64,000 nt of DNA from Salipaludibacillus sp. LMS25 (GTDB lineage: Bacteria; Bacillota; Bacilli; Bacillales; Salisediminibacteriaceae). The stretch is from contig NZ_CP093299.1 of the NCBI RefSeq assembly GCF_024362805.1, positions 806,001-870,000 on the forward strand, written 5' to 3'. This document shows positions 5,720 to 48,845 of this stretch, in pieces (within the stretch, counting starts at the first letter, position 1; each line of letters starts with the position of its first letter). Both the position numbers and the translations under genes were made by a program. The notes beneath the pieces were generated by a model that saw only the letters and a program-made list of their open reading frames with translations, was not told the DNA's origin and ran no database searches.

Positions 5720-5883
5720 GATAAAGCTAAGCTTCAATCAGTGGGAGTTTTCATTCTTCTCCCTCTGATTGGCAGTTGAGTGAATCAGGACATGAGCGTC
5801 CGTTCATTATCTCCCGCCTAAGTAGATTTGTCTTTGCTCTCTATTTTGACCCGGGAGGTTTACGGACGGTTATCTGTGATAAA
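5720..5883 (+). repeat. Hairpin repeat R1, subfamily B, full length
   Basis: Begins GATAAAGCTAAGC and ends CTGTGATAAA. Module 1 is an imperfect hairpin (CAATCAGTGGGAG with CTCCCTCTGATTG). Module 2 starts with a second CAATCAG and forms a long stem (GCGTCCGT with ACGGACG, CTCCC with GGGAG, and an inner AGA/TCT zone). Lies between the divergent-side flank of ytkD and tatA. Same orientation as all other copies in the window. Confidence 0.85.
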
Positions 5884-5971
5884 CGTTTGTTAGCAACTAA
5901 TAAAGAGAGATACCAGTCCATTCACTGATCTTGCTTGTGAGCTGGATTTCCGGCCTCAATCATTCAGACTT

Positions 5972-6190
5972 TCAAACGTTTTCCTCTACTTCTTTAGTCG
6001 ACGACTTCACATCTCTTTTTACCTCATTAGGACCCGTGATATCCTTTGTTAATTCATTTGTTGATTTTCTAAATTCTCGAACCGTTTGTCCAGCTGCCTT
6101 GCCGATCTCCGGAAGTTTTTGTGGTCCAAAAATAATGAGTCCGATAGTTAATATAAGTAACAAGCCAGGGAAACCAATATTTGCTAACAT
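5972..6190 (-). CDS. tatA: Twin-arginine translocase subunit TatA/TatE family
   Basis: 72 residues: an N-terminal membrane helix ([17 protein letters not shown]) directly followed by the [14 protein letters not shown] hinge and amphipathic helix characteristic of TatA, then a charged C-terminal tail. It forms the pore of the Tat pathway, which exports folded cofactor-bearing proteins. The start is ATG 6190 with AGGAGG 8 nt upstream. It lies 23 bp downstream of mobA in an operon with fdhE, which suggests service to a Tat-exported molybdenum or tungsten enzyme such as formate dehydrogenase. No tatC is in the window. Confidence 0.93.
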
Positions 6191-6213
6191 TATCTTTTCC
6201 TCCTTAGTGGATA

Positions 6214-6858
6214 TCACCTATAATTTTTATTAACATAGCGCTTTACTCGCTCGTAATCCTCTCTTGAATTCATATTAAAAAAGTTTCTCTCAACTGTACC
6301 TGCATTAAGCCCGGCTTTTAAAAAGTCTTGTTCAGTTATAATCTCATAATCTAATCCGGTTAAAACCTCTGATACTTTCAGCTTATTTTTCATTAAACAA
6401 TCTGTTATAAACGGTAAAGAAGACGTATGATAAAGGGCACTCAATGGCTGTTTCTTCTTACCTATTTGTGGCACAATCACTTGCTTATAAGGAAGTTTAC
6501 CTGCTCTTGTTAAAAGTACCTCTACAACTTGATAAGTTAGAAAGGGCATGTCACACGCCGTAATAAAATTCCACTCTGTGTTAGAAGCCGCCAGTCCAGC
6601 TTGGATACCTGCTAAAGGCCCCTTATTCTCATAGTTATCATGAATGAGCGGTTGTTTCAAAAATTTGTAACTTTCTGTCTCATTAGTCACTATTATTAAA
6701 CGATCAGTTAAAATTAAAAGCTCATTCCTAAGCCTTTGAATCGTCTCGTTTCCATGAATAGGTAATAACGCTTTGTTCATCCCCATCCGACTTGACTTAC
6801 CACCTGCAAGAATAACTCCCGTAACATTTAATCGTTTAGATTCATTAATGATTGTCAT
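6214..6858 (-). CDS. mobA: Molybdenum cofactor guanylyltransferase MobA
   Basis: About 214 residues. The nucleotide-binding motif [10 protein letters not shown] lies near the N-terminus and a conserved CDMPFL segment sits mid-protein; both are hallmarks of MobA, which attaches GMP to molybdopterin to give the bis-MGD form. The start is ATG 6858: AAGGA is about 7 nt upstream, and the start lies 14 bp inside the fdhE coding end, implying translational coupling. Operon order is fdhE-mobA-tatA. The context indicates maturation and export of a bis-MGD enzyme that is encoded elsewhere. Confidence 0.92.
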
Positions 6859-7636
6859 CGCCAAATCCTTCTTCTTGAGCGGCAAAATCGAGATGAATCG
6901 TTTGTAAATCCAATAACGAGGCCGATAACGTTTCTGGATAGCGGCTTTTCTCTATCAGCTTTAAATAGTTATTGCATGAGCTGCATATTTCAATATGCAC
7001 GGAGTCATCTTCTTTAATCGTCAGGTGAAAGGTATTCTCTTGTTTATCATCACCGCAATGCACACATGCTAAACGTAATTTATACCATTGAGTTTCACAT
7101 CTAGGACAGGCTAACCCTATCTTCTGATCACGGGTTACCTTTCCAAGTCTTGGGGGTTCACCACAGCAAGGACATGTCCCCATGACATTAAATTCATGGA
7201 TGACCGGTGCATATAACTGAGCAACCCCTTGAGCAAAAGGTCTAAATGCTTGCTCAGCAAGAAAATGAGGAAGCCATTCTGACACGTTCTTCTGTTCCGC
7301 TAAGCCATGAAAGTAATCCACCTCATATTTAATCGCTGCCTTAACCCATTGATACGCTTGGTGATCAGTTAGTTCACTAATCAGCTTATAAACGTCTCGT
7401 TTTATGTGAGGTTCATTATTAATCACTATGTCACTTAACACTTCCAATGCCACCTTATATAAATCAATTGGCACTGGATGGGGTAACTGCATAAGTACGG
7501 GCACTTCTCGATTTAAGGGCCTATCTCCAAACAGCTCTTTTATATGAGGGAGAAATTGCTCTTTTAATGATTGCTGCTCGTTAAAAATGGCCCTTTGCAA
7601 TTGGATATAGTCATCAGATACCACATGTGGATCCAT
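6845..7636 (-). CDS. fdhE: Formate dehydrogenase accessory protein FdhE
   Basis: 263 residues with four CxxC pairs in the C-terminal half (CPCCGEPP, CPRCETQW, CVHCGD, CSSCNNY), the rubredoxin-like metal sites of FdhE. FdhE family proteins are needed for assembly of active formate dehydrogenase. The start is ATG 7636 behind GAGGGGG. It is the first gene of a three-gene operon with mobA and tatA. No formate dehydrogenase subunit is encoded in the window; the 680 bp upstream contain only non-coding or decayed sequence. Confidence 0.88.
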   Translation of the reverse strand: MDPHVVSDDYIQLQRAIFNEQQSLKEQFLPHIKELFGDRPLNREVPVLMQLPHPVPIDLYKVALEVLSDIVINNEPHIKRDVYKLISELTDHQAYQWVKAAIKYEVDYFHGLAEQKNVSEWLPHFLAEQAFRPFAQGVAQLYAPVIHEFNVMGTCPCCGEPPRLGKVTRDQKIGLACPRCETQWYKLRLACVHCGDDKQENTFHLTIKEDDSVHIEICSSCNNYLKLIEKSRYPETLSASLLDLQTIHLDFAAQEEGFGDDNH

Positions 7637-8315
7637 CGTTATCCCCCTCAGATTGTTGACTTATGACCATTATAGCTCTAGCGCTCAAAACATGTCTACA
7701 TTGTATGATTGATTCCATCAAAGACATGAGCTAGTTTAGAAAGAAGTTGACAACCCTCCTACGTCTACCCTGGTTTCCATCCCTCTTTAACTAAAGTGAA
7801 TAACGCATCACGAAATTTTTTTTCTTTCATTCACAAACTTTCATAATAGAATAGAACATCATATTTAGTTATCAAGAAAGGTTGCTCCTGTAACATCACT
7901 TATATTTTCTATGGATCCTACATACAATCAAATAACTTTGGGGAATCACTACGTAGAACTTGTTAATAGCAGATCTCTCATATAACAGGGTCCACCCCAT
8001 CAACTCTTATTACCTTGATGTCTACTCTTACTTCGGCATGGAGAAGCTCACCTGAAAAGGTCTAAACAAATCTCTCAGCTTTACAATATTTTAGCGGCTT
8101 ATATTTAGCATGTAAAAACACGCTTATGTATGATTTTATCAAAACACTGCTCTATAGCATCGTCTTTTAACACGGCTTCAAGATGGTCTATAATAACTAG
8201 CCATTATAAGCCTATTATGTTCTATAATGAAAGAAACCCTATTAACAGTTGGGCATCAAGTTTAGACTTCTTATTAAGTAACAACTGGTTAACTAGAAAG
8301 GGCGTAATGTAACGA
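7637..8315. other. Long non-coding stretch with no supported gene
   Basis: About 680 bp with stops in all frames. On the minus strand two short readable stretches (around 7865-7915 and 7765-7830) look like eroded coding sequence, but nothing I can name. The promoter of the fdhE operon should lie next to 7640, and a promoter for the deacetylase near 8250. No structured repeat of the R family is present here. Confidence 0.4.
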
Positions 8316-9194
8316 ATGAGCAAATTACGAATCATCTCTGTAGTATGTCTGCTATTATTAGCAAGCGGTGCCTACATGTTACTTTATGAGCAGAACATAC
8401 CGTCAAGCGATACTTATGACGTAGAAAAAGCGATCATTACTAAATCCACTGTAAAGAAGCCTTCTGTTGATCTTCAAGCCCATACGAATGAGGTGTTAGA
8501 AAAGTGGCAAGGTCAGCACATAGAACCCACTGAATGGGGAGAACACATTTCTGGGGTAAAAAATAGAATCGATACGGAAGAAAAAATCATCGCCTTGACG
8601 TTTGATGCATGTGGGGGGGCATGGGGAGAAAAGTATGATGAGGTGTTAATAAACTTTTTAAAAGAGGAAGACATTCCTGCCACGTTGTTTATAAACGCTC
8701 GCTGGATTGCAGCTAATAAAGAGGCATTTATGATGTTAGCTGAAGAGCCTTTATTTTCAATTCAAAATCACGGGACACAGCATCTCCCTCTATCTGTTTC
8801 TGGGAAAACAGCTTGGGGAATTGAGGGAACGGCATCCGTCGAAGAAATTATACATGAGATTATGGATAATCAGTCATTGATTTATGAGCTGACCGGTCAT
8901 TCACCTGCCTTTTTTCGATCTGGTACAGCTCATTATGATGACCTTGCTGTCCAAATAACTCAAGAACTTGGCTTAACAATCGTCAATTATGATGTTCTCG
9001 GGGACGCAGGTGCTACTTATTCAGCTACCGAAGTGGAGGAAGCCCTCCTGACTGTTGGTCCTGGCTCAATTCCGCTGTTGCACATGAACCAGCCGACTAG
9101 TGGAACAGCAGAAGGAGTGATGGCCGCTATTCCTCAGCTTAAAGAACGTGGCTTTACTTTCGTTCATTTAGCTGATCAACCGTTGATTGATTAA
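8316..9194 (+). CDS. Membrane-anchored or secreted polysaccharide deacetylase (NodB homology domain)
   Basis: 292 residues. The N-terminus has a signal-anchor (IISVVCLLLLASGAYMLL). The NodB domain carries motif 1 as TFDACGG, motif 2 as NHGTQHLPLS (the metal-binding HxxxH) and a motif-3-like FFRSGTAHYD. Family members remove acetyl groups from peptidoglycan or other cell-surface sugars. The usual second Asp of motif 1 (TFDD) is Ala here, a substitution that exists in some family members but may alter metal use. The ribosome site AAAGGG is rather far (about 13 nt) from the ATG. It stands alone, with repeats R2/R3 downstream. Confidence 0.85.
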   Translation: MSKLRIISVVCLLLLASGAYMLLYEQNIPSSDTYDVEKAIITKSTVKKPSVDLQAHTNEVLEKWQGQHIEPTEWGEHISGVKNRIDTEEKIIALTFDACGGAWGEKYDEVLINFLKEEDIPATLFINARWIAANKEAFMMLAEEPLFSIQNHGTQHLPLSVSGKTAWGIEGTASVEEIIHEIMDNQSLIYELTGHSPAFFRSGTAHYDDLAVQITQELGLTIVNYDVLGDAGATYSATEVEEALLTVGPGSIPLLHMNQPTSGTAEGVMAAIPQLKERGFTFVHLADQPLID

Positions 9195-9276
9195 ACGTCG
9201 TGAAACTAAGCTAAAGTCAAATAACGTGTCTCCCACGTATAGAAGAGGTAATAAATCTCACATAGGACCTGTTCAT

Positions 9277-9389
9277 TATAAAACGATCCTTCAATCAGGA
9301 CTTTAGCGTCCGTTTTCTCCCACCTTAATAGATTTAGCCCTCCTCTCTATTTTAACCCGGGAGGTTTACGGACGGTTATCTGTGATAAA
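9277..9389 (+). repeat. Hairpin repeat R2, subfamily B, lacking module 1
   Basis: Starts ATAAAACGATCCTTCAATCAGGA and ends CTGTGATAAA. Compared with R1 the first hairpin is missing, exactly as if recombination had occurred between the two CAATCAG segments. Module 2 is intact (GCGTCCGT/ACGGACG stem). It is fused head-to-tail with R3, sharing the GATAAA junction at 9384-9389. Confidence 0.8.
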
Positions 9390-9543
9390 GCTAACCTTCA
9401 ATCAGTGGGAGTTATCCTTCATCCCCCACTGATTGTTCGTTTAACTTATGGGACCTTTAGGGGCAGTTTATCCCCCACCTAAACGTTTCGATCTTCTTAA
9501 GTTTTGAGATGGGGGTTTTACTGACCCTTAAGAGTGGGAGAAA
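9384..9543 (+). repeat. Hairpin repeat R3, subfamily A
   Basis: Module 1 is an ATCAGTGGG/CCCCACTGAT hairpin; module 2 is a long stem with TTTAGGGGCAGT paired to a slightly changed ACTGACCCTTAA, and the inner CCCCCACCT zone facing AGATGGGGG. It follows R2 directly. The 3' end is GAGTGGGAG rather than GAGTGGGATAAA. Confidence 0.8.
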
Positions 9544-9586
9544 AAAACAATAGACACCAAGCGTACACGTTTCAGAAAGCTGAAAA

Positions 9587-9630
9587 AACGTTTAATTAGG
9601 TGGCGTCGGGACGCCACCTAATTAAACGTT
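9587..9630. other. Perfect 21-bp inverted repeat with 2-nt spacer
   Basis: Arm 9587-9607 (AACGTTTAATTAGGTGGCGTC minus its last base, i.e. ending GGCGT then C) is the exact reverse complement of 9610-9630. The two arms are separated by only GG. It is unlike the R-family stems, has no T-tract and sits between R3 and the yuzF terminator. Could form a cruciform or a very stable RNA hairpin. Confidence 0.7.
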
Positions 9631-9661
9631 CTCACCTACGCTACGTATTGAGATGAGGGTT

Positions 9662-9692
9662 AAAAGGAATGCATTGAATGCATTCCTTTTTT
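9662..9692. terminator. Terminator downstream of yuzF (bidirectional)
   Basis: AAAAGGAATGCATT pairs with AATGCATTCCTTTTTT; there is an A-tract on one side and a T-tract on the other. It is suitable for ending yuzF on the minus strand and rightward transcripts. Confidence 0.75.
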
Positions 9693-9702
9693 AAACGACG
9701 CA

Positions 9703-9945
9703 TTATTGAGGCATAACCCAAATAATTTGTTGCGTGCGAATAAAATAAGTCACACCATCCGAATCAATGACCACATGATCGGGTTTGACCTCCGCAACTC
9801 TGCCTCTAATGTTTCCTTGACAAGTTTGAACCACTACCATAGAGCCTTGGACAGATTGGAGTGTCTGGTAGACAAATGGGTCATACAGGCTAACATATTG
9901 GAGCGTATCATTGTATTCTGTATGTCGTGACTCGTCATTATGCAT
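9703..9945 (-). CDS. yuzF: YuzF-like DUF2642 protein
   Basis: 80 residues; the core LYDPFVYQTLQSVQG...VVVQTCQGNIRGRV and the end YFIRTQQIIWVMPQ resemble B. subtilis YuzF and related DUF2642 proteins with an Sm-like small beta fold. Function is unknown; several relatives are spore-associated. The start is ATG 9945 with AAAGGAATG upstream. Monocistronic, flanked by a terminator and hairpin repeats on both sides. Confidence 0.75.
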   Translation of the reverse strand: MHNDESRHTEYNDTLQYVSLYDPFVYQTLQSVQGSMVVVQTCQGNIRGRVAEVKPDHVVIDSDGVTYFIRTQQIIWVMPQ

Positions 9946-10087
9946 CTAATCATTCCTTTCCTTTTGTGTCTAACCATTCTCATCATATGCCCATTAATAA
10001 AAATGGTGTATGGTTCCCTAATCTTTACACATGTCTTTCACATTAAAATGAAACGGCCGCCCTATTCCGGACAACCGCTTCATTATC

Positions 10088-10243
10088 AAATAAACGAACC
10101 TTCAATAGAGTTTTCGTTCCTCTCCCACTGATTGTTAGTTGAGTCAATCAGGACATTACCGTCCGTTTTCTCCCACCTAAATAGAGTTAGCTCTCCTCTC
10201 TATTTTGACTCGGAAGTTTTACGGACGATTATCTGTGATCAAA
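10088..10243 (+). repeat. Hairpin repeat R4, subfamily B, full length
   Basis: Runs from AATAAACGAACCTTCAAT to CTGTGATCAAA. Module 1 is degraded on its left arm; the module 2 stem CCGTCCGT/ACGGACG is kept. Lies between yuzF and a chemoreceptor gene. Confidence 0.75.
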
Positions 10244-10270
10244 CCGTATAAGTAAAGGAGACTATTTCAA

Positions 10271-11962
10271 TTACAAGCTAAATTTACTGACAGAGGCCTG
10301 TAATTCCTCGGCCATTTTCGCTAATTGATTAGCGGACGCACTAATTTCTTCCATAGAAGCATTCTGTTCTTCAGCGGAAGCTGCCACATTTTGTGTATAG
10401 CCAGCGGACTGCTCTGCAATTGACGTTGTTTCTTGGACAGAGGATTTAACCTTATTAACACCCTTTTCCACCTGTTCAATAGCTGCTGTCACTTCTTGCA
10501 TTTGAGATGACACACCATGTATCGCTTCTGACAGTTCTTCAAACGATTTACCTGCATCCTCCATATAATTCATGCCGGTTTGGGCTGCTTCACGTCCCTC
10601 TTTCGTATAGGAAACCGAGTGCTGAATATCCTGCTGTATATGAGCAATTAAGCTACTAATTTCATTCGTTGCGTTCCCGGTTTGTTCAGCTAATTTTCTA
10701 ACTTCGTCTGCCACGACTGCAAACCCTTTCCCATGCTCTCCAGCCCTGGCAGCTTCGATAGCTGCATTTAAGGCTAATAAATTGGTTTGTTCTGCAACAT
10801 CTGTAATAAGAGAAATGATTGAGCCAATTTTTTCAGAGCTGACAGCCAATCCATTGACTGAGCCGGCAATTTTATCTGTCAGCTGTTGTATAGATGTCAT
10901 TTGAGACACCGTGGAAGAAATAACGTCAGTTCCGTGTTCTGCTTTTTGAGCAGATGCCATTGATGACTGATTAACAGTCTGTATGCTAGACGCGATTAAT
11001 TCAATGCTTTCTGATATGTCATTCACAGTCCGTTCATTGTCGGCTGCTTTCTCCACTTGTGAGTCAGCTCCTGAGGCCACTTCCTGAATTGATTCTGTAA
11101 TCTCTTCCGTTACTTTCGTTGTCTCTGTGGAACTGGCCGATAATTGCTCTGAATTAGCCGCTACTTGATCTGATGTCCGGCGTACTTCCGTAATCATCGT
11201 CGAGAGATTATCGATCATTCGATTAATAGCCAGTCCAATTTTCCCTGCTTCGTCCTGTGATTCGATCTCAATTTTTTCAATAGCTAAATTGCCTCTACTT
11301 AGTTGTTCAGCTGTCTTAACAACATTGTTTAATCTTCTAGAGAGGTTTCGTGTCACAAACCAGAAGATACTACCTCCTCCAACAATGACAATTAAAACCA
11401 TCATAACAAAAATAATTATATTCGATGAAATAATGTGATAAACCTTCTTTTCTACCGCTTCCGCCTCTTCAAGCATCAGTCCCGAAAGGTTTAAAGCATT
11501 ATCAACGACTGTAGCTCTCGTTTCAGTCAATTCCTGTAACCGTTGATTTTGGAGAGGTCCTGAGTCACCAGGAATCCGTTCCACTCTCTCGTCGAATTCT
11601 ATTATTTGTGCTTGAAGATACTGAAATAACTCCTGGGATTCTTCAGTATACATTCTTCCTTCAAGCGCTGTGAGATGAGTCGTCAACTCGCTCGAAAAGT
11701 CATCATACCTCGTAAGATTGTCCTCTTCTCCAGTATGGTAAAAATCACTTATAGCAATATACTTCCCCCTTATAGAAGAAGCTACGTTAGTTGCAATAAC
11801 TGCTCTCTCGCTTTGATCAGCATACGCATCCATTTCTCGTTCAATCCCACTAAGCTGGTAATAGGTCACAACGGCCCCAATGATGAGTAAGAGGACTGTA
11901 AATGCAAATGTACCTAACACTTTCATTCGTATAGACATTGTCACATTAGCTAGAATTTTCAC
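10271..11962 (-). CDS. Methyl-accepting chemotaxis protein
   Basis: 563 residues. TM1 lies near residues 15-35, then an extracellular helical sensor of about 145 residues resembling a four-helix-bundle domain, TM2 near 185-205, a HAMP linker, and a long coiled-coil signalling domain with the highly conserved hairpin tip [19 protein letters not shown]. Senses an unknown ligand and controls CheA. The start is GTG 11962 behind AAAGGGTG; an internal ATG is nine codons later. Its neighbour at 12.2-13.8 kb is a second receptor with a different sensor but a very similar tip, so the pair probably arose by duplication. Confidence 0.93.
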
Positions 11963-12152
11963 TCTTTTTCACCCTTTTAAACGATTTTATAAAATAATAG
12001 TCCAAAAAACACAGTACAAAAGACTCTTATCTAGTAAAATAATCATATCATATTTCTTTCAGCTTAGGGTTAGATAGGTCTAAAATATCATAAAAACCAT
12101 CCCTAATAGCCAAAAGTCCTATTGTGATTTAATGTAAAAAATAATGACTAAA

Positions 12153-12183
12153 AAAACATCTGGTCCGGGCCAGATGTTTTTTA
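12153..12183 (-). terminator. Terminator of the second chemoreceptor gene
   Basis: CATCTGG TCCGGG CCAGATG hairpin, flanked by A-tracts (T-tract in the minus-strand RNA) just after the stop codon at 12190. Confidence 0.75.
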
Positions 12184-12189
12184 ATAGTG

Positions 12190-13848
12190 CTATAGTTTAA
12201 ATTGCTGTACTGCTTTTCTTAAGTTCTCTGACATGTTTGCCAATTGTTCTGAAGAGGCATTAATTTCTTCAAGTGTGGCATGTTGCTCTTCAGTAGCTGC
12301 TGCTACAGATTGCATGGCATCTACAGAGACTTTGGATAAGTCAGATGTTTGATCTGCTGTTGTAAGCATTTTTTCAGTATCTCTCTCCATTAATTGCATA
12401 CCATCGGCAATAGAGCTTAATTGTTCCCTCATCGCACCTATAGCAAGAGAGATCTCATTAAATACGTTACCTGCTTTATTGACCATTTTTTCGCCGTCTT
12501 CGACTGACATATAACCTTCTGTCATCACCATCGCTGACGATTCAATTTCGTTTTGAATTGTTTCGATGAGACCTTGCACATCCCCTGAGGCACTCGTCGT
12601 TTGTTCTGCTAACTTTCTAACTTCATCTGCTACAACAGCAAAGCCTTTACCGTGTTCACCAGCTCTCGCAGCTTCAATTGCCGCATTGAGAGCTAGTAAA
12701 TTGGTTTGTTCTGCTATTCCCGTAATCATTTCTAATATAGTCCCTATCTCGTTTGACTTTTGCGCAAGTCTTGTCACAGACATGGACATCTTATCTGTCA
12801 TCTCGCGAATATTTTTCATTTGATCAATACTGTCTTGAATCATCTGTTCACCTTCTTTAGCAGACACAACAGACGTTTCAGAAGTGTGATTAACTTTCTG
12901 TATATCCTCGGTATATGAGGCAATATTAACAGACATCTCTTTTACAACATTTTTATTTTCATGGGCGAATTCAGATTGTTTTTCTGCGCCTCCGCTCACC
13001 TCTTGAACAGACGACGTAATTTGTTCAGAAGCGTAACTTGACTCATTAGCGCTTGCTGTTAATTGTTGTGAGGAGGCAGCTAGCTGAGTAGACATATCAT
13101 TCACTTGTCCTAACAAAACCTTCAGCTGAGTGACCATTTTGTTCACTGCTTTTGCTATTTTTCCGATCTCATCATCAGACTGAACATCTAACAGATCAAC
13201 TTGTAGATCACCTTCGCTTATGTTAGTAAGGGTCGTAATCACGTTATTAAGAGAGCGTGAAACGATTAAGCCAATTGTTATAAATACTATGGTGCCAATT
13301 AGCAAAGCGGCCCCCATTGTACTTATAATAATAAATTTAGTACTCCCTATTTCAGATGAAACTGATTGTGTTGAAGATGTAACATGCTGATCAAAATGGT
13401 CATTTAACTGCATTAACCCACTCAAGCTTTCATCTCGATAACCGGCCAGTTGCTGAAGAGCTGCTTCAGTCACATTCCCATTTGAAAAAACTTGCTCACT
13501 TTCTGCAACAAAGTTGGCATAGGCAGCCGCTGAATTGGAAAAAAGTTCTTCTTGCTCGTCGGCTGTCAATTGTCCTTCTAGCCATTGTTGTTTATCGTCA
13601 AATCTGTGTTGTAATTCTTGAAGTTCTGTTAATGACGCCCCTTCACTTACCAGCAATGATTGCTGTTGAAGGTTTGTCATTAATTCTTGTACAACCGTTA
13701 ACCGCTCTGTATCTTTTTGTAACTGCTGTGCTTCACTGTCTATAGCATTTAAGTAATAAAAACTACCTATAAAGCCAGCTAAAAATAAGATAATTACTAA
13801 TGCAAAACCGGTGAGAAACTTCGTTTGAATCGATCTGTTTTTCCACAT
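12190..13848 (-). CDS. Methyl-accepting chemotaxis protein
   Basis: 552 residues. TM1 is near 13-32; an extracellular helical sensor rich in Gln, Glu and Ser follows (about 33-172). TM2 lies near 173-195, then HAMP and a signalling domain with tip [19 protein letters not shown]. The start is ATG 13848 with AAAGGAA about 10 nt upstream. The ligand is unknown. It has its own terminator, so it and the downstream receptor gene are separate units despite lying in tandem. Confidence 0.93.
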
Positions 13849-16915: not shown

Positions 16916-17074
16916 ATAAAGCTAAGCTTCAATCAGTGGGCGTTTTCCTTCATCCCCCACTGATTGTTCGTTTAACTTATGGGACCTTTAGGGACAGGTT
17001 ATCCCCCACCTAAACGTTTCGATCTTCTTAAGTTTTGAGGTGGGGGTTTTACTGCCCCTTAAGAGTGGGATAAA
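16916..17074 (+). repeat. Hairpin repeat R5, subfamily A (near-consensus)
   Basis: ATAAAGCTAAGC to GAGTGGGATAAA. Module 1: CAATCAGTGGG pairs with CCCACTGATTG. Module 2: the CCCCCACCT arm pairs perfectly with AGGTGGGGG around a 30-nt loop, with an outer AGGGACAG/CTGCCCCT stem containing a wobble or mismatch. Confidence 0.85.
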
Positions 17075-18363: not shown

Positions 18364-18525
18364 CGACTCGTACATGCCTCTTCCGCAACAGACGAACGCT
18401 TTCCCGATGGCTCGTTTTCAGCTATATGCGCCATTAAATCTTTCGTATCATTGCACCTTCAGACGTTGTTGATCCTCCGGGAGTCCCCGTCTTTCACTGC
18501 AGCTCTTTTTAAAAAACGACCATTT
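18364..18525 (+). repeat. Dispersed repeat C, copy 1
   Basis: Segments such as CTTCCGC.ACAGACGAACGCTTTCC, AGCTATATG.GC, CTTCAGACGT, TGATCCTC..GGGAGTC and TGCAGCTC followed by TTAAAAA.CGAC recur in inverted orientation at 32955-33120. The last part also occurs near 22915-22980. No coding frame spans it. Confidence 0.6.
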
Positions 18526-18589: not shown

Positions 18590-18685
18590 ATAAAACGCCC
18601 CTTCAATTAGGCCATTAGCGTCCCGCCTATATAGAGTTACCTCTCTATTTTCGAGCGGGTGTTACGGAGGGTTATCTGTGATAAA
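18590..18685 (+). repeat. Hairpin repeat R6, subfamily B, lacking module 1
   Basis: ATAAAACGCCCCTTCAAT to CTGTGATAAA. Stem variants GCGTCCCGC/GCGGG...ACGGAGG differ from R1 and R2 while pairing is largely kept. Ends directly at the terminator of the fru operon. Confidence 0.75.
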
Positions 18686-22741: not shown

Positions 22742-23128
22742 TTGCCAGTACCACCTTTCTTAATAAAACTTACCAGTGATTTAATACCTAATTAACGTTA
22801 TCTGAACCAATTTCATCATACTACATACACCTGTAAAAAACGACCCATACAGTGATCTACCCCTTCAGACGGACGGTTATCTGTGATAAACTCCTTGCGC
22901 ATCACTGGATATACAGACGTCGCTAATCATCCTTTTGGAGTCACCATCTTTCACTGCAGCACTGTTTAAAACGAACATTTGATATAGGCCTTATCATTGT
23001 TCATATGGAAAGTCGAATTGTAACGTTCATCTATGAAAAAATATTTAAATTCTATCTTCTCTGATCATTTTACTATATTTTTACTATGTAAGCTAACATT
23101 AACTCTCACTAGTTCGAATGCCATACTT
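22742..23128. other. Intergenic region with repeat remnants
   Basis: No gene seen. It contains R7, a 3'-end fragment of subfamily B (about 22867-22890, GACGGACGGTTATCTG then TGATAAA), immediately followed by a fragment of repeat C (about 22915-22980, with GGAGTCACC and CTTTCACTGCAGC). The remainder is AT-rich. Confidence 0.5.
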
Positions 23129-23286
23129 ATAAAACGAGCCTCCAATCAGTGGGCGTTTTCCTTCATCCCCCACTGATTGTTCGTTTAACTTATGGGACCT
23201 TTAGGGACAGTTTATCCCCCACCTAAACGTTTCGACCTTCTTAAGTTTTGTGGTGGGGGTTTTACTGCCCCTTATGAGTGGGATAA
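23129..23286 (+). repeat. Hairpin repeat R8, subfamily A
   Basis: ATAAAACGAGCCTCCAATCAG to GTGGGATAAA. The left 12 bases match the B-type start (ATAAAACG) while the body is A-type, which shows exchange between subfamilies. Stems of both modules are intact apart from single changes. Confidence 0.85.
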
Positions 23287-23333
23287 AGAAACTAAATTGC
23301 CATTCTTCTAAGTCCCGTTCATTCTTAGAAATG

Positions 23334-27368: not shown

Positions 27369-27525
27369 ATAAAGCTAAGCTTCAATCAGTGGGCGTTTTC
27401 CTTCATCCCCACTGATTGTTAGTTTAACTTATGGGACCTATAGGGGCAGTTTATCCCCACCTAAACGTTTCGATCTTCTTAAGTTTTGAGGTAAGGGTTT
27501 TACTGCCCCTTAAGAGTGGGATAAA
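27369..27525 (+). repeat. Hairpin repeat R9, subfamily A
   Basis: ATAAAGCTAAGC to GAGTGGGATAAA; both modules complete with a few stem changes (GAGGTAAGGG in place of GAGGTGGGGG). It ends 14 bp before the stop codon of the aldehyde dehydrogenase gene, so it lies in that transcript's 3' end. Confidence 0.85.
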
Positions 27526-36460: not shown

Positions 36461-36547
36461 AAACACCCCTTCAATAATTCGACGTACCATTACCATTTAT
36501 TGGTAATTTTGTGGATTTGGCCATTAGCGACCGTTATCTGTGATAAA
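36461..36547 (+). repeat. Hairpin repeat R10, degenerate subfamily B
   Basis: Starts like R6 (AAACACCCCTTCAAT) and ends GACCGTTATCTGTGATAAA; the central stem-loop is replaced by unrelated sequence with its own small hairpin (ATTACCATTTATTGGTAAT). Confidence 0.6.
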
Positions 36548-39649: not shown

Positions 39650-39700
39650 GGCACTCGCCTCCTGAACAATTTTAAAGGACACATTTTTGTCACTTTTATT

Positions 39701-41641: not shown

Positions 41642-41743
41642 AGACATTTAGTTTTTATCATCACGGGCATGCCTACAGTGCAAATCAAAGCTTAAGAAGA
41701 AACCAGCTCCTTAAAAAATAAGGAATGTGTGCATCACACTAAT

Positions 41744-42466
41744 TCATAACTTTTCAAACACTATCTTCCCCAGCGTTTCAATTAAATAGAGAACAGGGAG
41801 CTGGGTCGTCACATTCGAAATATCATTAAATTCGGTGTTGATGTAATACGCTAATGGGTAGTCAGATAACTGTGCTACTGTACAGCTTTTGGTATTCGTA
41901 ATACTTACAATCGTGGCACCTTCTTCTCGAAAGCGATGTAGCTTGGAAATAATGTGCTCGGTTTCACCAGAGACAGACAAAATAATAGCGAGACTATGAC
42001 GTATTTGCTTTCCGTTTATCGGATAAAATGGATCACTTATAGCTGACGAAAACGTGTTTAAGCTTGAAAAATAGCGAGCACCGTACTCCGCTAGTATGCC
42101 TGAACTGCCACTTCCGATAAAGACAACTTGTGAGGAAGATACTATTTCATCTGCTATGGCACTTAATTGAGCCTGATAATCTGATTTCAATGTCCGTTCC
42201 AAAAATTCATTCATTGATTCATAACTATGATTTAACCATTTCGTTTCCGTTTTCTCTAAATAAAGCTTTAACTTAGTTTTAAATTCTGAAAAACCGTCAC
42301 AATCAAGCTTCTTACAGAAACGTAAAATGGTCGTTGGAGAAACATGTGTCACTTCTGCCAGTTCTCTAATTCGCATATAAGCTACTTTTTCGCCATGAGC
42401 TAGTATGTATTGATATAACAGTGTATCTAAGTCAGAGAACTGGGCAAGCTGCTTCGGTGTAAACAT
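41744..42466 (-). CDS. RpiR/MurR-family transcriptional regulator with SIS domain
   Basis: 240 residues. The N-terminal HTH_6 domain (TPTTILRFCKKLDCDGFSEFK-like, about 40-65) is followed by a sugar-isomerase (SIS) sensor (VFIGSGSSGILAEY, SVSGETEHIISKL). Such proteins sense sugar phosphates. It diverges from the GH4 6-phospho-glycosidase gene with 150 bp between, which makes that gene its likely target and a 6-phospho-beta-glucoside the likely effector. Confidence 0.88.
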   Translation of the reverse strand: MFTPKQLAQFSDLDTLLYQYILAHGEKVAYMRIRELAEVTHVSPTTILRFCKKLDCDGFSEFKTKLKLYLEKTETKWLNHSYESMNEFLERTLKSDYQAQLSAIADEIVSSSQVVFIGSGSSGILAEYGARYFSSLNTFSSAISDPFYPINGKQIRHSLAIILSVSGETEHIISKLHRFREEGATIVSITNTKSCTVAQLSDYPLAYYINTEFNDISNVTTQLPVLYLIETLGKIVFEKL

Positions 42467-42618
42467 TTAGCATCGTCCTTTTTACATTGACTTACGTCAT
42501 ATTATCATGATTTAAGTGTCTTTTTAACGTATATACGCTTGTCTTACTTTTCTATTATACAAATGAAATGGCTTTCGTACATCTCATCTTACCCTAAAAG
42601 ATTAAAGGAGTGTTGAAC

Positions 42619-43935
42619 ATGGCTAAAACAGGCTTAAAAATTGCAACTATTGGTGGGGGTTCCAGCTATACACCAGAATTAGTCGAAGGATTTATTAAAC
42701 GATATGACTCATTACCGATCAGTGAGTTATGGTTACTTGATATTCCAGAAGGAGAAGAAAAACTGACTATCGTGGGTAATCTTGCAAAACGAATGGTAGA
42801 AGAAGCTGGCGTTCCCATGACGATTCATCTCACACTTGACCGTGAAAAAGCATTAAAAGACGCCGATTTCGTCACAACTCAATTTCGTGTCGGCCTGCTT
42901 GATGCCCGTGCTAAAGACGAACGAATTCCATTGAAGTACGATGTGATCGGACAGGAAACAAATGGACCAGGCGGACTTTTTAAAGGGTTAAGAACTATTC
43001 CGGTGATTCTCGATATCATTCAAGACATGGAACGCCTATGTCCCCATGCATGGTTAATTAATTTCACAAATCCTGCCGGCATGGTTACAGAAGCCATTTA
43101 CAGACATTCTAACTGGCGCAAAGTCGTTGGACTATGTAACGTACCCGTAGGAATTAAAATGGGGGTGGCTAAAGCTCTCGAAGTGGAGGCAAATAGAGTA
43201 CACGTTGACTTTGCCGGCTTAAACCATATGGTATACGGCATGGACGTTTATTTAGACGGCAAGTGTGTCACAGAAGACGTTATTAATAAAATAACGTCAG
43301 GAGATTCCTCAATGACGATGAAAAACATCGTTGACATCGGATGGGAACCTGGATTTTTGAAAGCATTAAATATGCTTCCTTGTCCATACCATCGTTATTA
43401 CTATAAAACGTCTGATATGTTGGCAGAAGAAAAGAAAAACGCAGCCGAAGAAGGAACTCGGGCAGAAGTTGTTCAAAAATTGGAAAAAGAGCTCTTTGAA
43501 CTATATAAAGATGAAACTTTGCGTACCAAACCTGAACAACTAGAAAAACGCGGTGGTGCTTATTATAGTGACGCAGCTTGTAATCTTATCGATTCCATTT
43601 ATAATGATCGTGGTGATATTCAACCTGTCAATACGTTAAATAAAGGGGCGATTGGCAGTATACCAGATGATTCTGCTGTCGAAGTAAACTGCATCATTAC
43701 GAAGGATGGCCCTAAACCGTTAGCAGTTGGCGATCTTCCTGTCTCTGTCAGAGGGCTTGTACAACAAATTAAATCTTTCGAACGCATTGCTGCTGAAGCG
43801 GCAGTTAGTGGCGACTATGATCAAGCATTGCTGGCAATGACGATCAATCCACTTGTCCCATCTGATACAACCGCTAAACTTATACTGGACGAGATGCTGG
43901 AAGCTCACAAAGACTATTTACCTCAATTTCAGTAA
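42619..43935 (+). CDS. GH4 6-phospho-beta-glucosidase (LicH-like)
   Basis: 438 residues. NAD-binding ATIGGGSSYTPEL at the N-terminus, GQETNGPGG, NFTNPAG, metal-ligand Cys in GLCNVPVG and His in AGLNHMVYG: the GH4 fold using NAD+ and Mn2+. It hydrolyses phosphorylated beta-glucosides delivered by a PTS. The start is ATG 42619, with AAAGGAG about 8 nt upstream. No PTS gene is adjacent, so uptake must be encoded elsewhere. Likely controlled by the divergent RpiR regulator. Confidence 0.9.
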   Translation: MAKTGLKIATIGGGSSYTPELVEGFIKRYDSLPISELWLLDIPEGEEKLTIVGNLAKRMVEEAGVPMTIHLTLDREKALKDADFVTTQFRVGLLDARAKDERIPLKYDVIGQETNGPGGLFKGLRTIPVILDIIQDMERLCPHAWLINFTNPAGMVTEAIYRHSNWRKVVGLCNVPVGIKMGVAKALEVEANRVHVDFAGLNHMVYGMDVYLDGKCVTEDVINKITSGDSSMTMKNIVDIGWEPGFLKALNMLPCPYHRYYYKTSDMLAEEKKNAAEEGTRAEVVQKLEKELFELYKDETLRTKPEQLEKRGGAYYSDAACNLIDSIYNDRGDIQPVNTLNKGAIGSIPDDSAVEVNCIITKDGPKPLAVGDLPVSVRGLVQQIKSFERIAAEAAVSGDYDQALLAMTINPLVPSDTTAKLILDEMLEAHKDYLPQFQ

Positions 43936-44101
43936 GTCCCTACGGGAGGCCCATCAACAGTGAAAGGCTTCCCTTTTCTAGTCAAAATTGACCTCATGAT
44001 GATGGTCAAAAATCTTCGTCTTTTACTTTTAATGGAGCCTACACTCGTCTCTTATTGGCTCTGTCACAATTGGTGGAAGACACTACACCTTATTAGTGTA
44101 T

Positions 44102-45610
44102 TTAAAGACCGTCATGATTATCTATCCATTTCACGATACGTTCTCTAGCAAAACGGGGATAAACCCATAAATCAGGCTCTATGCCAACTGCCTCCTTTTC
44201 CAAAAATTGCGGGTGATAGCGTAACATACTAGGTATACTCACTTTCGCTCCTGAATGAGGAAGTTCTATATGTTGGTTATTTCCTGAACTCATGGCACCT
44301 CCACTAGGTGCCCCTACGATGTAAACGTCGGGATGCTGCCGTAAATAGGCCACAAGTATTTCAGCGGCTGCACTCGTCGCTTCATCGATTATAATATAAA
44401 TTGTCTTATCAAGTTCAGTTAAGTCACCTGTCTTCATCTCTTCAATCTGCCATTCCCAATGAGTCTCATCCTCATATTCATTAATGTTAAAAGGGTCTTC
44501 AGCATCTAAAAGGCCTTCCCATTCGACTCCCGCTTCTCTGTTCCTTTCTACTTTATCATTTAAGAAAGTGAGCGTAGCAGGTGTAATTAATTGAGCAGAA
44601 TAGCTTTTTATACTCGGTTCTTGGGATGTCAACCTCTTGTACCATTCTTGCGCAAACTTAATGTGTCCCTGATTGTTATTTCGTAAATCAAGGATGAAAG
44701 TTGGTGCTTCAGCTACTTGATCCGCTGATTCTAACATATCTTCATAGCTATGAGAATCTTCTTTATAAATCAACATATTTCTTAACTGAATGATTGGTAT
44801 TTCCTCGTCTTCATAAATATCAAACGATGTGTCTCTTAATCGGTCTAATCCAGATCGGCGTACTGCCACCTCTATCGTTTCTTGATTTTCCATGGCAATT
44901 TCCCATGAGTGTTGCGATAACTCATCTGTATACACACCTGGAAAATAGACTAGTTCCCCCTCAAAATTGAGACTAGGGAGCAAATATGCATCAGGCTCAT
45001 CCCCATTGATGGTTACGACCTTGTCCTTTTTCTGATGATCTTTATAAAGCCAGTAAGTTCCCTGATCATCTTTCACAAAGGTCACTTCCTCTGTAATAAA
45101 AAACTGATGCTCACGGTCAAAAAATGGGGAACCATCAATTGATATCTGTTGATCGGTTATAAAAGCATAATGATCGCTAATAAGGGCAATAAACTCATCA
45201 TAATTAACCTCTTCCCCTTCAGCATACTCGCCTTCAATGGTCTCTGTTAATTGCTCATGTGCTTGATTAAAACTGTCTTTACCACCATACACCTCATATA
45301 ATGCATAAGACTGAGACCACAATTCATTCAATACATGAATATCCAGTAACATCTCTTCTTTTGTAACTGTCTCCGCTCTGTCATCAGAAATTCGTAGCAT
45401 ATTTAGGTCATCTCGCTCAATCCCATTATCATTATCTTCAAAATTATATAAGTAATTGTGGATATCACTTCCCGAAACTGATTCAAAAAAACGATCTTCG
45501 CTAGTAGCCTCACGAAGTTTCTCTATGTCACTTAGCGGTTCTACTACTGATTCACTGCATCCAGCTACAAGGCTACATAGAATAAGAAGGCTAATTATAC
45601 ATGTTATCAT
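44102..45610 (-). CDS. S41-like peptidase domain lipoprotein
   Basis: 502 residues. Lipobox LVAGC at the N-terminus predicts lipid anchoring. The C-terminal half has the tail-specific protease (S41) core: FILDLRNNNQG, then IIIDEATSAAAEILVAYL with the candidate nucleophile Ser, then VGAPSGGAM. No PDZ domain is evident and the N-terminal 250 residues are acidic and unrecognised. The ATG at 45610 follows GGGAGGG. Stands alone. Could be a degenerate or specialised family member; the catalytic Lys should be checked. Confidence 0.75.
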   Translation of the reverse strand: MITCIISLLILCSLVAGCSESVVEPLSDIEKLREATSEDRFFESVSGSDIHNYLYNFEDNDNGIERDDLNMLRISDDRAETVTKEEMLLDIHVLNELWSQSYALYEVYGGKDSFNQAHEQLTETIEGEYAEGEEVNYDEFIALISDHYAFITDQQISIDGSPFFDREHQFFITEEVTFVKDDQGTYWLYKDHQKKDKVVTINGDEPDAYLLPSLNFEGELVYFPGVYTDELSQHSWEIAMENQETIEVAVRRSGLDRLRDTSFDIYEDEEIPIIQLRNMLIYKEDSHSYEDMLESADQVAEAPTFILDLRNNNQGHIKFAQEWYKRLTSQEPSIKSYSAQLITPATLTFLNDKVERNREAGVEWEGLLDAEDPFNINEYEDETHWEWQIEEMKTGDLTELDKTIYIIIDEATSAAAEILVAYLRQHPDVYIVGAPSGGAMSSGNNQHIELPHSGAKVSIPSMLRYHPQFLEKEAVGIEPDLWVYPRFARERIVKWIDNHDGL

Positions 45611-45783
45611 TCACGTTCCCTCCCTTCTATCATTACGAATGAACTTATAAAAAAGTTTCTCTTAGTCACGCTTTTAACGCCATATTTTTTAAAAAATAGA
45701 AAATGTCACTTCCTATACTTAACGAGTGCTTTACAGACGGTCTATCATCAAGTGTTAAATTCTGGCTCCATTCTTAGCATGTA

Positions 45784-45808
45784 AGAAAAGCTCGCCACTA
45801 GGCGAGCC
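45784..45808 (-). terminator. Terminator of the 118-residue gene
   Basis: GCTCGCC ACTA GGCGAGC hairpin with a TTTTCTT run in the minus-strand RNA. Confidence 0.75.
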
Positions 45809-45879
45809 AAAATAAACTATCAAATTCTTACATCATCACCTTTAGTATGAACGTAACTGTTGAAGTAGGCACTTGACAA

Positions 45880-46236
45880 TTAAGGAGAACCATTTATCTC
45901 AGGATCAATATACGCATTCGCTTCCTTTAGCTTATTAAATGCTTCTTTAAATTCCTCTTTTGAAACAGTAACTTCCACAATGTGAGTAAACGTCTCGCTC
46001 TTATTACTTCCCATATTCCCCATTTCTTCCACACTACCTAAAAAGCCAGGTGCTCCAAAGTTCCCCATACCGCTTCCCGTACTACCTAAATTAGCTACAG
46101 GGAAAAGAATTAATTTATTCCTATCTTCTGGAAGTTCATCCACTACTACGTTGGAAATAGACATTTTCTGCAAATGTGCTACTGCTTTTTCAGCATCATT
46201 CTCAGTTTTGAAATACGCTTGAATCTTTTGACTCAT
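45880..46236 (-). CDS. Small stress-type protein of unknown function
   Basis: 118 residues. The N-terminal segment (KIQAYFKTENDAEKAVAHLQKM) and the C-terminal ferredoxin-like half (VEVTVSKEEFKEAFNKLKEA) flank a glycine-rich middle (LGSTGSGMGNFGAPGFLG). The pattern recalls general-stress YflT/GSP17M-like proteins, but the match is weak. The ATG follows AAAGGAG. Monocistronic. Confidence 0.55.
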   Translation of the reverse strand: MSQKIQAYFKTENDAEKAVAHLQKMSISNVVVDELPEDRNKLILFPVANLGSTGSGMGNFGAPGFLGSVEEMGNMGSNKSETFTHIVEVTVSKEEFKEAFNKLKEANAYIDPEINGSP

Positions 46237-46575
46237 ACGTAAATCTCCTTTCTAGTTTTAGTCATGTATTCCCTTCTACAGTTACTTTAAACCATGAAGA
46301 ATACCTGCCTCAGCTAAGTATTGTCAGGAAAATGATTGATACACAAAATGATGATGTGAGGCAATGTGGGTGGAAGATAGACTAATATCCGCTATGGTAG
46401 ATTAAACTGTTAACAAATCACTTTACCTTTCGCACATTTATTCTCGTATGTAGGCATATGCCATTCTCTTCTAAACTTCCAGTTCCAGAATAATGATTTG
46501 AATTGTGATCGCTTTCAAAAACAAAGGCACGATATATAGGTTTATGTTTGTTCGCTAACTCATTTGTTTAACACC
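46237..46575. other. Non-coding gap
   Basis: About 340 bp without a gene. A near-cre site (TTGTGATCGCTTTCAA, one mismatch from the CcpA consensus) lies at 46503-46518; its relevance is unclear because it is downstream of the decayed arabinanase gene. Confidence 0.35.
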
Positions 46576-47266
46576 CTACGATTCTATAGAGACATCATCA
46601 AATAATGGAAGATCTGGATCTGACATAACATGAATCATATCATTGCCCTCTGCATCATAATAAGGACCATCTGGATGCTCAGAGCGAGCCGCTCACATGT
46701 TATAACCACCATCAGCATCTAAACCACCGAACGTGACAGCAACTAGTAATAGTTTGTTTCTGAACTATATACAATATAAGGGGCTTCGATCCTACTATGA
46801 TTACCATCCATTAATTTTTTCCCATATCCTTGATCTGGCTTCGGTTTACCTGTTTCTTCATCCATCTCTAAAATAAAAATACCACCTGAATATGAACCAG
46901 ATACAAGCCGAAGGTCACCATCATTATCATAAAGCTAAGCTTCAATCAGTGGGCGTTTTCCTTCATCCCCCACTGATTATTCGTTTCACTTATGGGACCT
47001 TTAGGGGCAGTTTATCCCCCACCTAAACTTTTCGACTTCTTAAGTTTTCAGGTGGGGGGTTTACTGACCCTTAAGAGTGGGATAAAATGTCCATCCACTT
47101 CAATAACTGAAGGGGCGTGGACAGTTGCCTCAGTGAATTGAGCAAACGCATCTAACCTTTTTTCATCTGCCGTAACGGAAGATGAAGCGAAAGAAATCAA
47201 TCCAGACAAACCCACACATCCTATTAATAATAATGTAACTAAGCTTTTCAATCTATTCTTTAACAC
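46576..47266 (-). pseudogene. GH43 arabinanase pseudogene interrupted by repeat R11
   Basis: The 5' end (GTG 47266) encodes a signal peptide (SLVTLLLIGCVGLSGLISFA) and the start of the mature enzyme (ATVHAPSVIEVDGHF). R11 follows, then the reading resumes as DNDGDLRLVSGSYSGGIFIL and NHSRIEAPYIVY, diagnostic of extracellular arabinan endo-1,5-alpha-L-arabinosidases. The 100-plus residues normally between these parts are gone. Beyond that there is a frameshift near 46757, an in-frame stop near 46695 and a truncated end. No functional product is possible. Confidence 0.8.
46929..47086 (+). repeat. Hairpin repeat R11, subfamily A, inside a pseudogene
   Basis: ATAAAGCTAAGC to GAGTGGGATAAA with both modules. 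On each side is arabinanase-like coding sequence in the opposite direction, so this copy shows that the element can land in, or replace part of, coding DNA. Confidence 0.85.
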
Positions 47267-47668
47267 TTAAACGCCTCTTTCTAAAGATGAATTTACTATA
47301 ACACCGCTCCCTCTCTAGACGTCTTTGGCTTTGGATAACAAAGCTAATTAAACCATTTAACCTTGTTAACAGCCTCCATTATATGGTTAAATATGCATTC
47401 AAGCAATGGCCTTTTCCTTCTATATTCTGACTAATTACACACTAAATTTAACGCTATTTCTTTATCATGCTAAAAATTGATATAATCCTTTGTCCTGTCC
47501 CTTTCTCAAAAAAGTTGAATAATGCTAAGCATTTGTAGTATTTTAGAGTAAACGGTACTCGACACAATTCTGGCCACTTTCCACTATTAACACGCTTTTG
47601 TTAAAAATTAGACTGGTCGAATACCAGTGATGACATGAGCTTTGGGATAAAACCAAGGAGGAAACCAT
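47267..47668. other. Non-coding gap upstream of the synthase
   Basis: About 400 bp of AT-rich DNA. No gene seen; promoters for the arabinanase remnant (minus) and the synthase (plus) should lie here. Confidence 0.35.
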
Positions 47669-48496
47669 ATGAAAAATGAGAAACAACTACATAAAGACGC
47701 GATGGGGCAATTAAAAAAAACAAGTAGGACCTTTTACATTCCAATTACATTATTAGAACCCACATTAAAAAAGACAGTGGCTTCCGCCTATTTATGTATG
47801 CGGGCAATTGACGAAATTGAAGACAATGAGAAACTGGAACCATCGACAAAATCTCATCTTCTTTCTAAAACAAGTACTTTATTAAACAACACGTTTAACA
47901 ATGACGCATACCTTGAACTAATTGATCCATACAAACAACTGCTCCCTGAAGTCACGTTAAGACTAGGAGACTGGCTTTCAGTTTGCCCTGCAGATATTGT
48001 GGAAAAAGTGAAGGAATCTACAAGTACTATGGCTCAAGGCATGGCAAAATGGGCCGAAAAAAATTGGGATATTCAAACGAAAGAAGATTTAGACGACTAC
48101 ACCTATTATGTAGCCGGCCTTGTTGGTGTTATGCTTTCTGATATTTGGGAATGGCGAGATGGCACGAAAACTGACAGAAACTTTGCTATCGCATACGGCC
48201 GAGGTTTACAAACAGTGAACATACTTCGCAACCAAGAAGAAGATAAAGAGCGGGGAATTTCATTTATACCTAATAATTGGAATAGTGATGATACCTTTCA
48301 GTATGCTGAAGCCAACCTTGCCCTCGGAGATGAATACATGAAGGATATAACTAGTAAAAATATAAGTCTCTTTTGCAAAATCCCTCTAGAATTAGCCAAG
48401 AGAACACTTAAGGTGCTAAAGTCTGGGCGCGAAAAAATGTCTAGAGATGAAGTAAATCAAACGGTTGAGGATATTAAAAACTATCATTATCACTAA
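47669..48496 (+). CDS. Phytoene/squalene synthase family protein
   Basis: 275 residues, all-helical trans-prenyltransferase of the head-to-head type. First Asp-rich motif RAIDEIEDN (about 47-55) and second motif as NILRNQEEDKERGI near 190, with DYTYYVAGLVG between. Members couple two C15 or C20 diphosphates (squalene or phytoene), or in B. subtilis YisP release farnesol. The Asp/Glu residues look complete in motif 1; motif 2 has EEDKE rather than DxxxD. The ATG follows AAGGAGG. No other isoprenoid gene is nearby. Confidence 0.85.
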   Translation: MKNEKQLHKDAMGQLKKTSRTFYIPITLLEPTLKKTVASAYLCMRAIDEIEDNEKLEPSTKSHLLSKTSTLLNNTFNNDAYLELIDPYKQLLPEVTLRLGDWLSVCPADIVEKVKESTSTMAQGMAKWAEKNWDIQTKEDLDDYTYYVAGLVGVMLSDIWEWRDGTKTDRNFAIAYGRGLQTVNILRNQEEDKERGISFIPNNWNSDDTFQYAEANLALGDEYMKDITSKNISLFCKIPLELAKRTLKVLKSGREKMSRDEVNQTVEDIKNYHYH

Positions 48497-48585
48497 AATG
48501 CAGATCTATTCCGCTTATCTAAACACACTGAATGGCTGTAAAATAGACAAAATCACGGACTAAATTCTGTTAAACCGTCCATAGT

Positions 48586-48615
48586 AAAAAGCGCCTTTCT
48601 ATATCGGCGCTTTTT
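48586..48615 (+). terminator. Terminator of the synthase gene
   Basis: AAAAAGCGCC and GGCGCTTTTT around a 10-nt loop, about 90 bp after the stop. Confidence 0.8.
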
Positions 48616-48790
48616 ATACGTTCTTTAATTGTCATTTAAATAACCTTCTCGAGGATGACAATTAACTTCATTAAGAAGCTCTTACTTTTCACCCCCAGTT
48701 AAGCAATACATGTACAGAGAAAAGGAATCAGGAGTGATTACGCTTACAAAATGTAATAGTCACTTGAAGTGAGATTATAATTAAGTGATA

Positions 48791-48845
48791 ATAAAGCTAA
48801 GCTTCAATCAGTGGGAGTTTTACTGCCCCTTAAGAGTGGGATAAA
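48791..48845 (+). repeat. Hairpin repeat R12, subfamily A with internal deletion
   Basis: The left 27 bases (ATAAAGCTAAGCTTCAATCA then GTGGGAG) are joined directly to the right end TTTTACTGCCCCTTAAGAG then TGGGATAAA. The intervening 100 bp are missing, so only the two termini remain. Confidence 0.85.

Follow-up and report, generated by a model that had tools for sequence, protein, structure and literature searches.

REP and REPIN sequences are non-autonomous palindromic elements served in trans by a Y1 transposase, RAYT. Here, we describe a family of hairpin repeats from a 64-kb stretch of the Salipaludibacillus sp. LMS25 chromosome (the window, positions 806001-870000 of the single 4,525,667-bp contig of this genome, G000), which very probably is a non-autonomous, PATE-like family derived from transposons of the IS200/IS605 type. 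The palindrome-associated transposable elements (PATEs) of Haloquadratum, themselves IS605-derived, share with the repeat, as the Haloquadratum report describes them, the absence of terminal inverted repeats, subterminal palindromes, a lack of target duplication, a length too short for a transposase and a relation to IS605-type ends; their core deletions between direct repeats (52 bp) recall a 55-nt form found here, and they show strain-specific insertions despite broken transposase genes, a situation resembling that in hosts of the repeat (PMC3119063). Unlike the PATEs, the repeat reaches an estimated several hundred copies, occurs in many genera of the Bacillales, has a two-step left hairpin and carries TTTAT at both ends, and its relation to IS605-type ends is demonstrated for the left end only. 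We term it PATE-like, and do not file it as a PATE, because by eye its right palindrome is unlike the IS605-type right ends with which it was compared.

Two features of the IS200/IS605 mechanism are found in the repeat, namely insertion 3' of a fixed pentamer and orientation according to the lagging-strand template. Published work describes a preference of IS608 and ISDra2 for the lagging-strand template, with the orientation of family members following replication (PMC5371812), and T-rich pentamer targets, including TTTAT, for the group A IStrons (PMC4227781). REPs, given as 20-40 bp (PMC3733652), are shorter than the repeat, and their resident RAYT has no counterpart here: the only places matching the Y1_Tnp profile (used as the TnpA search) in G000 are IS200-like, and G001 and G005, two copy-bearing sister species of the same genus, have none. 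bcr1, a group A Bacillus cereus repeat, is described as short, structured, mostly chromosomal and of high copy number, as is the repeat, and published work on B. cereus repeats connects their mobility with TTTAT motifs and describes a "site-specific recombination-like mechanism" (PMC6542083, PMC8725734). Like bcr1, our repeat carries a TTTAT motif repeated in the element. bcr1 is reported as confined to the B. cereus group, whereas the repeat spans many genera, and blastn of two family members against plasmid records gave no B. cereus-group plasmid among the matches listed. Judged by its published description only, bcr1 may belong to the same family.

The minus strand of the window gives the best reading of the element, with TTTAT at both ends. 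A full-length type A copy, such as the reference copy at 16916..17074 (minus strand), starts with TTTAT-CCCACTCTTAAG, continues with a two-step hairpin that a linker joins to a second hairpin, and ends with AAGCTTAGC-TTTAT, ~159 nt in all counting both pentamers; at ~155 nt, the element is too small for a transposase gene. Along the element strand the layout is therefore a target TTTAT, a left linker, the left hairpin with its internal loop, a short linker, the right hairpin, a 10-nt linker and the element's own TTTAT. Type B copies have a different left half (TTTATCACAGATAACCG...), with the right hairpin present or absent. The initial annotation had proposed two hairpin modules bounded by like motifs without terminal inverted repeats; the motifs are borne out, TTTAT standing at both ends on one strand, and the two modules hold for full copies and not for the one-hairpin, remnant and 55-nt forms. 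Palindromes near both ends are evident from folds and covariation. Three window copies were folded and compared with shuffled sequences, which revealed a clear excess of stability for the type A reference copy (z -5.1), a weaker one for a hybrid copy at 5721..5883 (z -3.1) and no clear excess for a one-hairpin copy (z -1.7, with 15 of 200 shuffles equally good). When 29 copies drawn from several families were aligned, changes on both sides were found at 25 of the 36 pairs, against 5 to 10 in slid controls. By eye, many copies carry YTAAC at the 5' foot of both hairpins, the place corresponding to that of the IS608 guide sequence in the published description (PMC7290912). YTAAC is absent from the IS605-type left ends, and is not used as evidence.

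Orientation was examined in an 864-kb sample of G000 (the window and 40 stretches of 20 kb each), with the expected strand given by the sign of the local GC skew of each stretch; the skew flips at ~1.83-1.92 Mb and ~4.2-4.3 Mb, taken as origin and terminus. Left ends, counted by motif with types A and B scored apart, occur at 154 places, 131 with and 23 against the favored orientation (85%; p ~1e-19 if copies are independent), namely 79:12 for type A and 52:11 for type B. With R1, a covariance model of the repeat, the 150 best copies of the genome divide 137 to 13 (91% by hand count, with 14 exceptions if the terminus lies at exactly 4.22 Mb), and the 13 opposite copies may be true insertions or later inversions. 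Non-overlapping R1 matches, drawn from the best 150 of 172, divide 99 to 19 among 118, and left ends in 300-kb samples of the sister genomes 15:2 (G001) and 35:2 (G005). The bias is therefore strong without being absolute. All 12 copies named in the initial annotation, which had called the orientation strict and free of reverse-complement copies, are present in the window in one orientation, and the four opposite-strand R1 matches there are weak mirror matches on top of real copies; genome-wide, an opposite minority exists and strictness was not upheld.

The bias does not depend on gene direction. With neighboring open reading frames (ORFs) of at least 100 aa from a crude ORF call, R1 matches in the 864 kb divide 23:2 between convergent genes, 24:5 between divergent genes (47:7 pooled), 39:10 between tandem genes co-directional with replication, 10:1 between head-on tandem genes and 3:1 at stretch ends. 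The same bias in every gene setting shows that orientation follows replication, as had been proposed, and neither an even split of orientations nor a tracking of gene direction was seen. Intragenic copies had also been reported, but none of the 118 R1 matches lay inside an ORF of at least 100 aa by this crude call. Since intergenic TTTAT is not commoner on the favored strand (714 versus 793 on the other), the supply of targets does not explain the bias. In the favored orientation, TTTAT...TTTAT is read on the leading-sense strand, which serves as the lagging-strand template. Bias is no weaker among the best-preserved copies than overall, which fits a bias of insertion and not later selection. 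All six Y1_Tnp places in G000 are also in the favored orientation, although these numbers are small.

The terminal pentamers show how the repeat inserts. TTTAT stands at both ends in 65 of 102 near full-length copies; 22 have a variant at the left and TTTAT at the right, seven the converse and eight a variant at both, and in none is the same variant found at both ends. Empty sites had been suggested as a check, and 83 of 85 G000 copies were accordingly compared with stretches of G001 and G005, giving one occupied-like and seven empty-like sites. The gap is exactly five nucleotides, one pentamer, in four of the seven (L044, L047, L056 and L063) and six in L040, while two sites with gaps of 14 and 11 were left uncounted. 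At L063 the sister species has TTTGT, and the occupied site has TTTGT at the left and the element end TTTAT at the right; the pentamer of L047 and L056 is TTTAT in either species. Insertion thus occurs 3' of a TTTAT-like pentamer, the left pentamer being that of the target and the right one that of the element. Target duplication was ruled out by L063, together with the lack of any variant repeated at both ends. A test from the sister side (34 of 35 copies) gave one occupied-like and two empty-like sites, both of which were dropped (one involved another repeat and one was ambiguous), a further comparison found replaced or diverged, uninformative sequence at five of seven sites, and no paralogous empty sites were found within the G000 sample.

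A transposase with shared ends had been proposed as a further check, and a relation was found for the left end. A second covariance model of the repeat, R2, used on order-wide genomes and on IS605-type loci, first matched the left end in four of four TnpB loci from two genomes (G019 and G026) and in one of 30 TnpA loci (L347-L376), namely L350, which carries TnpA followed by TnpB. Over 33 IS605-type loci, of which five (L343-L346 and L350) were already known to match, R2 gave 11 matches with E values up to 0.15 (limit 3), including six in the 28 newly added TnpB loci. All 11 lie on the tnp strand and end from 17 nt inside to 156 nt before the first ORF there (TnpA in L350, TnpA-like by eye in L385 and a TnpB frame in the other loci), with no match elsewhere in the 100.7 kb that these loci comprise. 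A third model, R3, was built only from nine such left ends (L343-L346, L350, L378, L390, L397 and L399), in whose alignment 97% of cells are paired and 9 of 15 pairs show changes on both sides. In the window, R3 finds eight copies and nothing else (E 6e-7 to 0.33), among them the left-end hairpin of the reference copy at 16986..17068 (minus strand, 34.0 bits, E 9.2e-7). It finds 137 places in G000 (best E 1.7e-10); the best five, when checked, were repeat copies, the top match (L405) being an ordinary one. E values of all three models are approximate (short calibration), and R3 is circular in that its loci were picked by R2, with L384 and L385 dropped for a hairpin that differs by eye. The independent part of the evidence is that every R2 match in the loci sits at a transposon left end.

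The repeat and the IS605-type left ends share the position of TTTAT, an outer stem of ~6 pairs, an internal loop, a 9-pair inner stem and a CTCAA...TAGG-like apex. In the nine TnpB-bearing elements, the two-step stem and internal loop lie at a similar distance from the target as in the repeat, and five of the nine have TTTAT at the left by eye. Unlike the repeat, they carry tnpB (L350 also tnpA) and a different right hairpin, several ending in TAGTTCAA. From these comparisons, the left end of the repeat is judged homologous to the left ends of TnpB-bearing IS605-type elements, which agrees with the IS200/IS605 origin suggested earlier.

We propose that a Y1 (HUH) transposase supplied in trans would bind the hairpins while the element strand, as part of the lagging-strand template, is single-stranded and would cut after both TTTAT motifs. 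The resulting single-stranded circle would be inserted where a second lagging-strand template exposes a TTTAT-like pentamer, on the 3' side of that pentamer, and one orientation would come to prevail on each replichore. The enzyme, the single-stranded intermediate and the coupling to the fork are what we infer here. Our searches of the window, where its absence had been reported, and beyond turned up no cognate transposase. G000 holds four identical intact IS200 copies and two decayed ones, with a TnpA 25% identical to that of L350. The resident IS200 was rejected as the mover, as the ends of the four intact copies differ from the repeats by eye.

Several observations weigh against a derivation from IS200/IS605-type transposons, the mismatch of the resident IS200 among them. 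G001 and G005 are rich in copies and gave zero Y1_Tnp matches, and neither they nor G000 gave any match to PF07282, used as the TnpB search. Nine of 51 repeat-rich genomes lack Y1_Tnp, which among 60 relatives is about as frequent with the repeats (9/11) as without (38/49). No copy with an ORF between its ends was seen in 80 named loci and the sampled stretches (motif search and listings by eye). Of these 80 loci, 57 had typical and 23 atypical copies by motif, and in the three atypical loci examined no transposase-like ORF was tied to the repeat; left ends without a nearby right end are, by eye, one-hairpin, decayed, truncated or interrupted copies. The right end of the repeat is unlike the IS605 right ends compared by eye. 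R2 matched ends in none of 29 TnpA loci (L104-L132, E up to 0.1) and, among the 30 further ones, only the left end of L350, so that the similarity of the left end is to TnpB-bearing elements, not to TnpA loci as a class; the other R2 matches in those 30 loci were a decayed copy of the repeat lying apart from the gene (L360) and a weak match (L359, E 0.6). At L044 the left pentamer is TTTAT when occupied and TTTGT when empty, and a substitution must be assumed. In one published genome IS605 elements are described as lacking a strand preference, with 10 of 22 tnpA on the leading strand (PMC7290912, which also describes a PATE-like element). The gene of the mover may have been lost or may visit on replicons outside the assemblies, or else another enzyme acts.

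Mobilization by an enzyme outside the Y1/HUH transposases, such as a different recombinase that acts on folded single strands, would account for the copy-rich hosts without a Y1_Tnp or TnpB match and for the unfamiliar right end. We nevertheless consider it unlikely, given that the left end is homologous to those of IS605-type elements and that the target rule and strand bias are like those published for IS200/IS605 (PMC5371812, PMC4227781), and because a transposase may be lost or visit on plasmids. In the Haloquadratum report, the IS200-type genes of strain C23 are pseudogenes, and yet it has strain-specific insertions (PMC3119063).

The alternative raised in the initial annotation, a replication-oriented DNA signal akin to Chi, KOPS or ter-type sites whose orientation is kept by selection, would explain the strong replichore bias and the conserved fold. 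However, the repeat is patchy in close relatives (of the eight genomes of the genus, three have R1 matches), sister species lack the insertion at individual sites, the best-preserved copies show no weaker bias and many copies are decayed or shortened; this reading was already disfavored, and we find it very unlikely. A further alternative is an RNA element, either a structure of an untranslated region or a retrotransposed RNA, oriented by transcription or by priming at the fork. Its hairpins covary, and fork-primed retrotransposition could likewise yield a strand bias. For two B. cereus strains, 84 of 165 and 62 of 155 intergenic copies of all 18 bcr families are reported to lie within mRNA (PMC3446304). 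Against this, orientation ignores gene direction, the target-derived pentamer is at the left where priming on an RNA 3' end predicts the right, and the left end is homologous to the ends of DNA transposons. The element strand has nearly as many A-C as G-T cells (28 and 36 of 1634), so that there is no sign of either strand favoring wobble pairs and folding as RNA, although neutral decay of dead copies could also even the counts. These points make an RNA element highly improbable. Ordinary miniature inverted-repeat transposable elements (MITEs) of a DDE transposase would be small, numerous and without an ORF, as the repeat is, and bcr1-3 have been termed MITE-like (PMC3446304). The absence of terminal inverted repeats and of target duplication and the replication-biased orientation speak against them, and in our view the empty sites refute them.

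The 12 copies in the window, all read on the minus strand, comprise five full type A copies, one hybrid, one two-hairpin and two one-hairpin type B copies, two remnants and one 55-nt deletion form. The type A copies were all in the training set of R1: besides the reference copy (206.1 bits), they lie at 9385..9543 (left pentamer TTTCT, right TTTAT; R1 200.6 bits, R3 E 3.8e-6), 23129..23287 (195.5 bits, E 6.3e-7), 27369..27525 (188 bits, E 5.3e-5) and 46929..47086 (194.7 bits, E 2.9e-5). The hybrid copy has a type B left half and a type A-like right end (R1 72 bits). The type B copy at 9278..9389 lacks the right hairpin (R3 match at 9301-9389, E 0.05), and its left TTTAT doubles as the right end of the type A copy that follows. 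A second one-hairpin type B copy lies at 18590..18685, and the type B copy at 10089..10244 has a decayed right hairpin and a left pentamer TTGAT (R1 52.3 bits). The remnants are a type B left end (22866..22890) and a type B copy with an altered middle (36461..36547). The 55-nt form of type A at 48791..48845 looks by eye like the product of a deletion between AAAACCCCCAC and AAAACNCCCAC, short direct repeats in the two hairpin arms. Across the 864 kb, a tail without a recognizable right-hairpin arm follows 21 of the 91 type A and 21 of the 63 type B left ends, a motif-based class that mixes short forms, decayed copies and some tandem copies. Also in the window are a further short repeat pair (18472-18514 and 22929-22971, 84% over 43 nt), which by eye has no relation to the hairpin family, and an insertion sequence in two inverted copies (54301-55549 and 62300-63548, 87%) with a Mutator-family (PF00872) transposase.

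Rfam at the gathering score has no family for the repeats in the window, and a permissive search of seven loci gave nothing that fits the repeat itself. Matches to the Bacillaceae-1 RNA (RF01690) fell in or near copies (L253:4446-4511, overlapping the right hairpin of a copy, and L197:2152-2274), and L083 (within 1501-1712) has an insert in the same loop that looks similar by eye, Rfam giving no match there. Small repeats that target PATE palindromes are described in Haloquadratum and resemble such inserts (PMC3119063). In L083, group II intron domains (1889-2445) adjoin a repeat copy, and in L001 and L004 resident IS200 copies are followed, at once or within a few bases of their right end, by copies of the repeat, the IS200 end in L004 seeming to supply part of the TTTAT target.

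G000 has at least 150 copies in the R1 genome listing, and extrapolation from the 864 kb would give ~800 per genome. Type A left ends are far commoner in its sample (91) than in the 300 kb of G005 (6) or G001 (3), which suggests a recent burst of type A in G000. R1 (E 1e-3) matched 11 of 60 relatives, and R2 (E 1e-6) matched 122 of 397 genomes of the order and 62 of 135 genera. Carriers among the 80 of 120 stretches listed include Evansella clarkii, Neobacillus, Peribacillus, Cytobacillus, Lysinibacillus, Psychrobacillus, Sporosarcina, Niallia and Heyndrickxia. Plasmid records gave few matches and the phage records searched gave none; a partial copy of the repeat at 221561-221640 of CP079755.1 (L133), labeled as Klebsiella grimontii plasmid pNY3A, reflects either transfer or mislabeling. 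We found no published account of the repeat family or of a tie between bcr1 and IS605, in literature whose coverage was thin for subscription journals and the original bcr1 papers.

More tentatively, and with more doubt than conviction, we speculate that single-strand mini-transposons persist at high copy number across the Bacillales without a recognizable Y1 or TnpB, moved by the transposases of transient replicons or by an unrecognized enzyme working on folded lagging-strand DNA, and that bcr1 is a member, which would explain its TTTAT. The family described here offers a single mechanism for many intergenic repeats of the Bacillales, a large class without an Rfam family at the gathering score in the window, and possibly for bcr1. 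Its hundreds of insertions per genome form a natural record of lagging-strand exposure around the chromosome, and the hosts that lack a recognizable transposase make the question of the mover testable.

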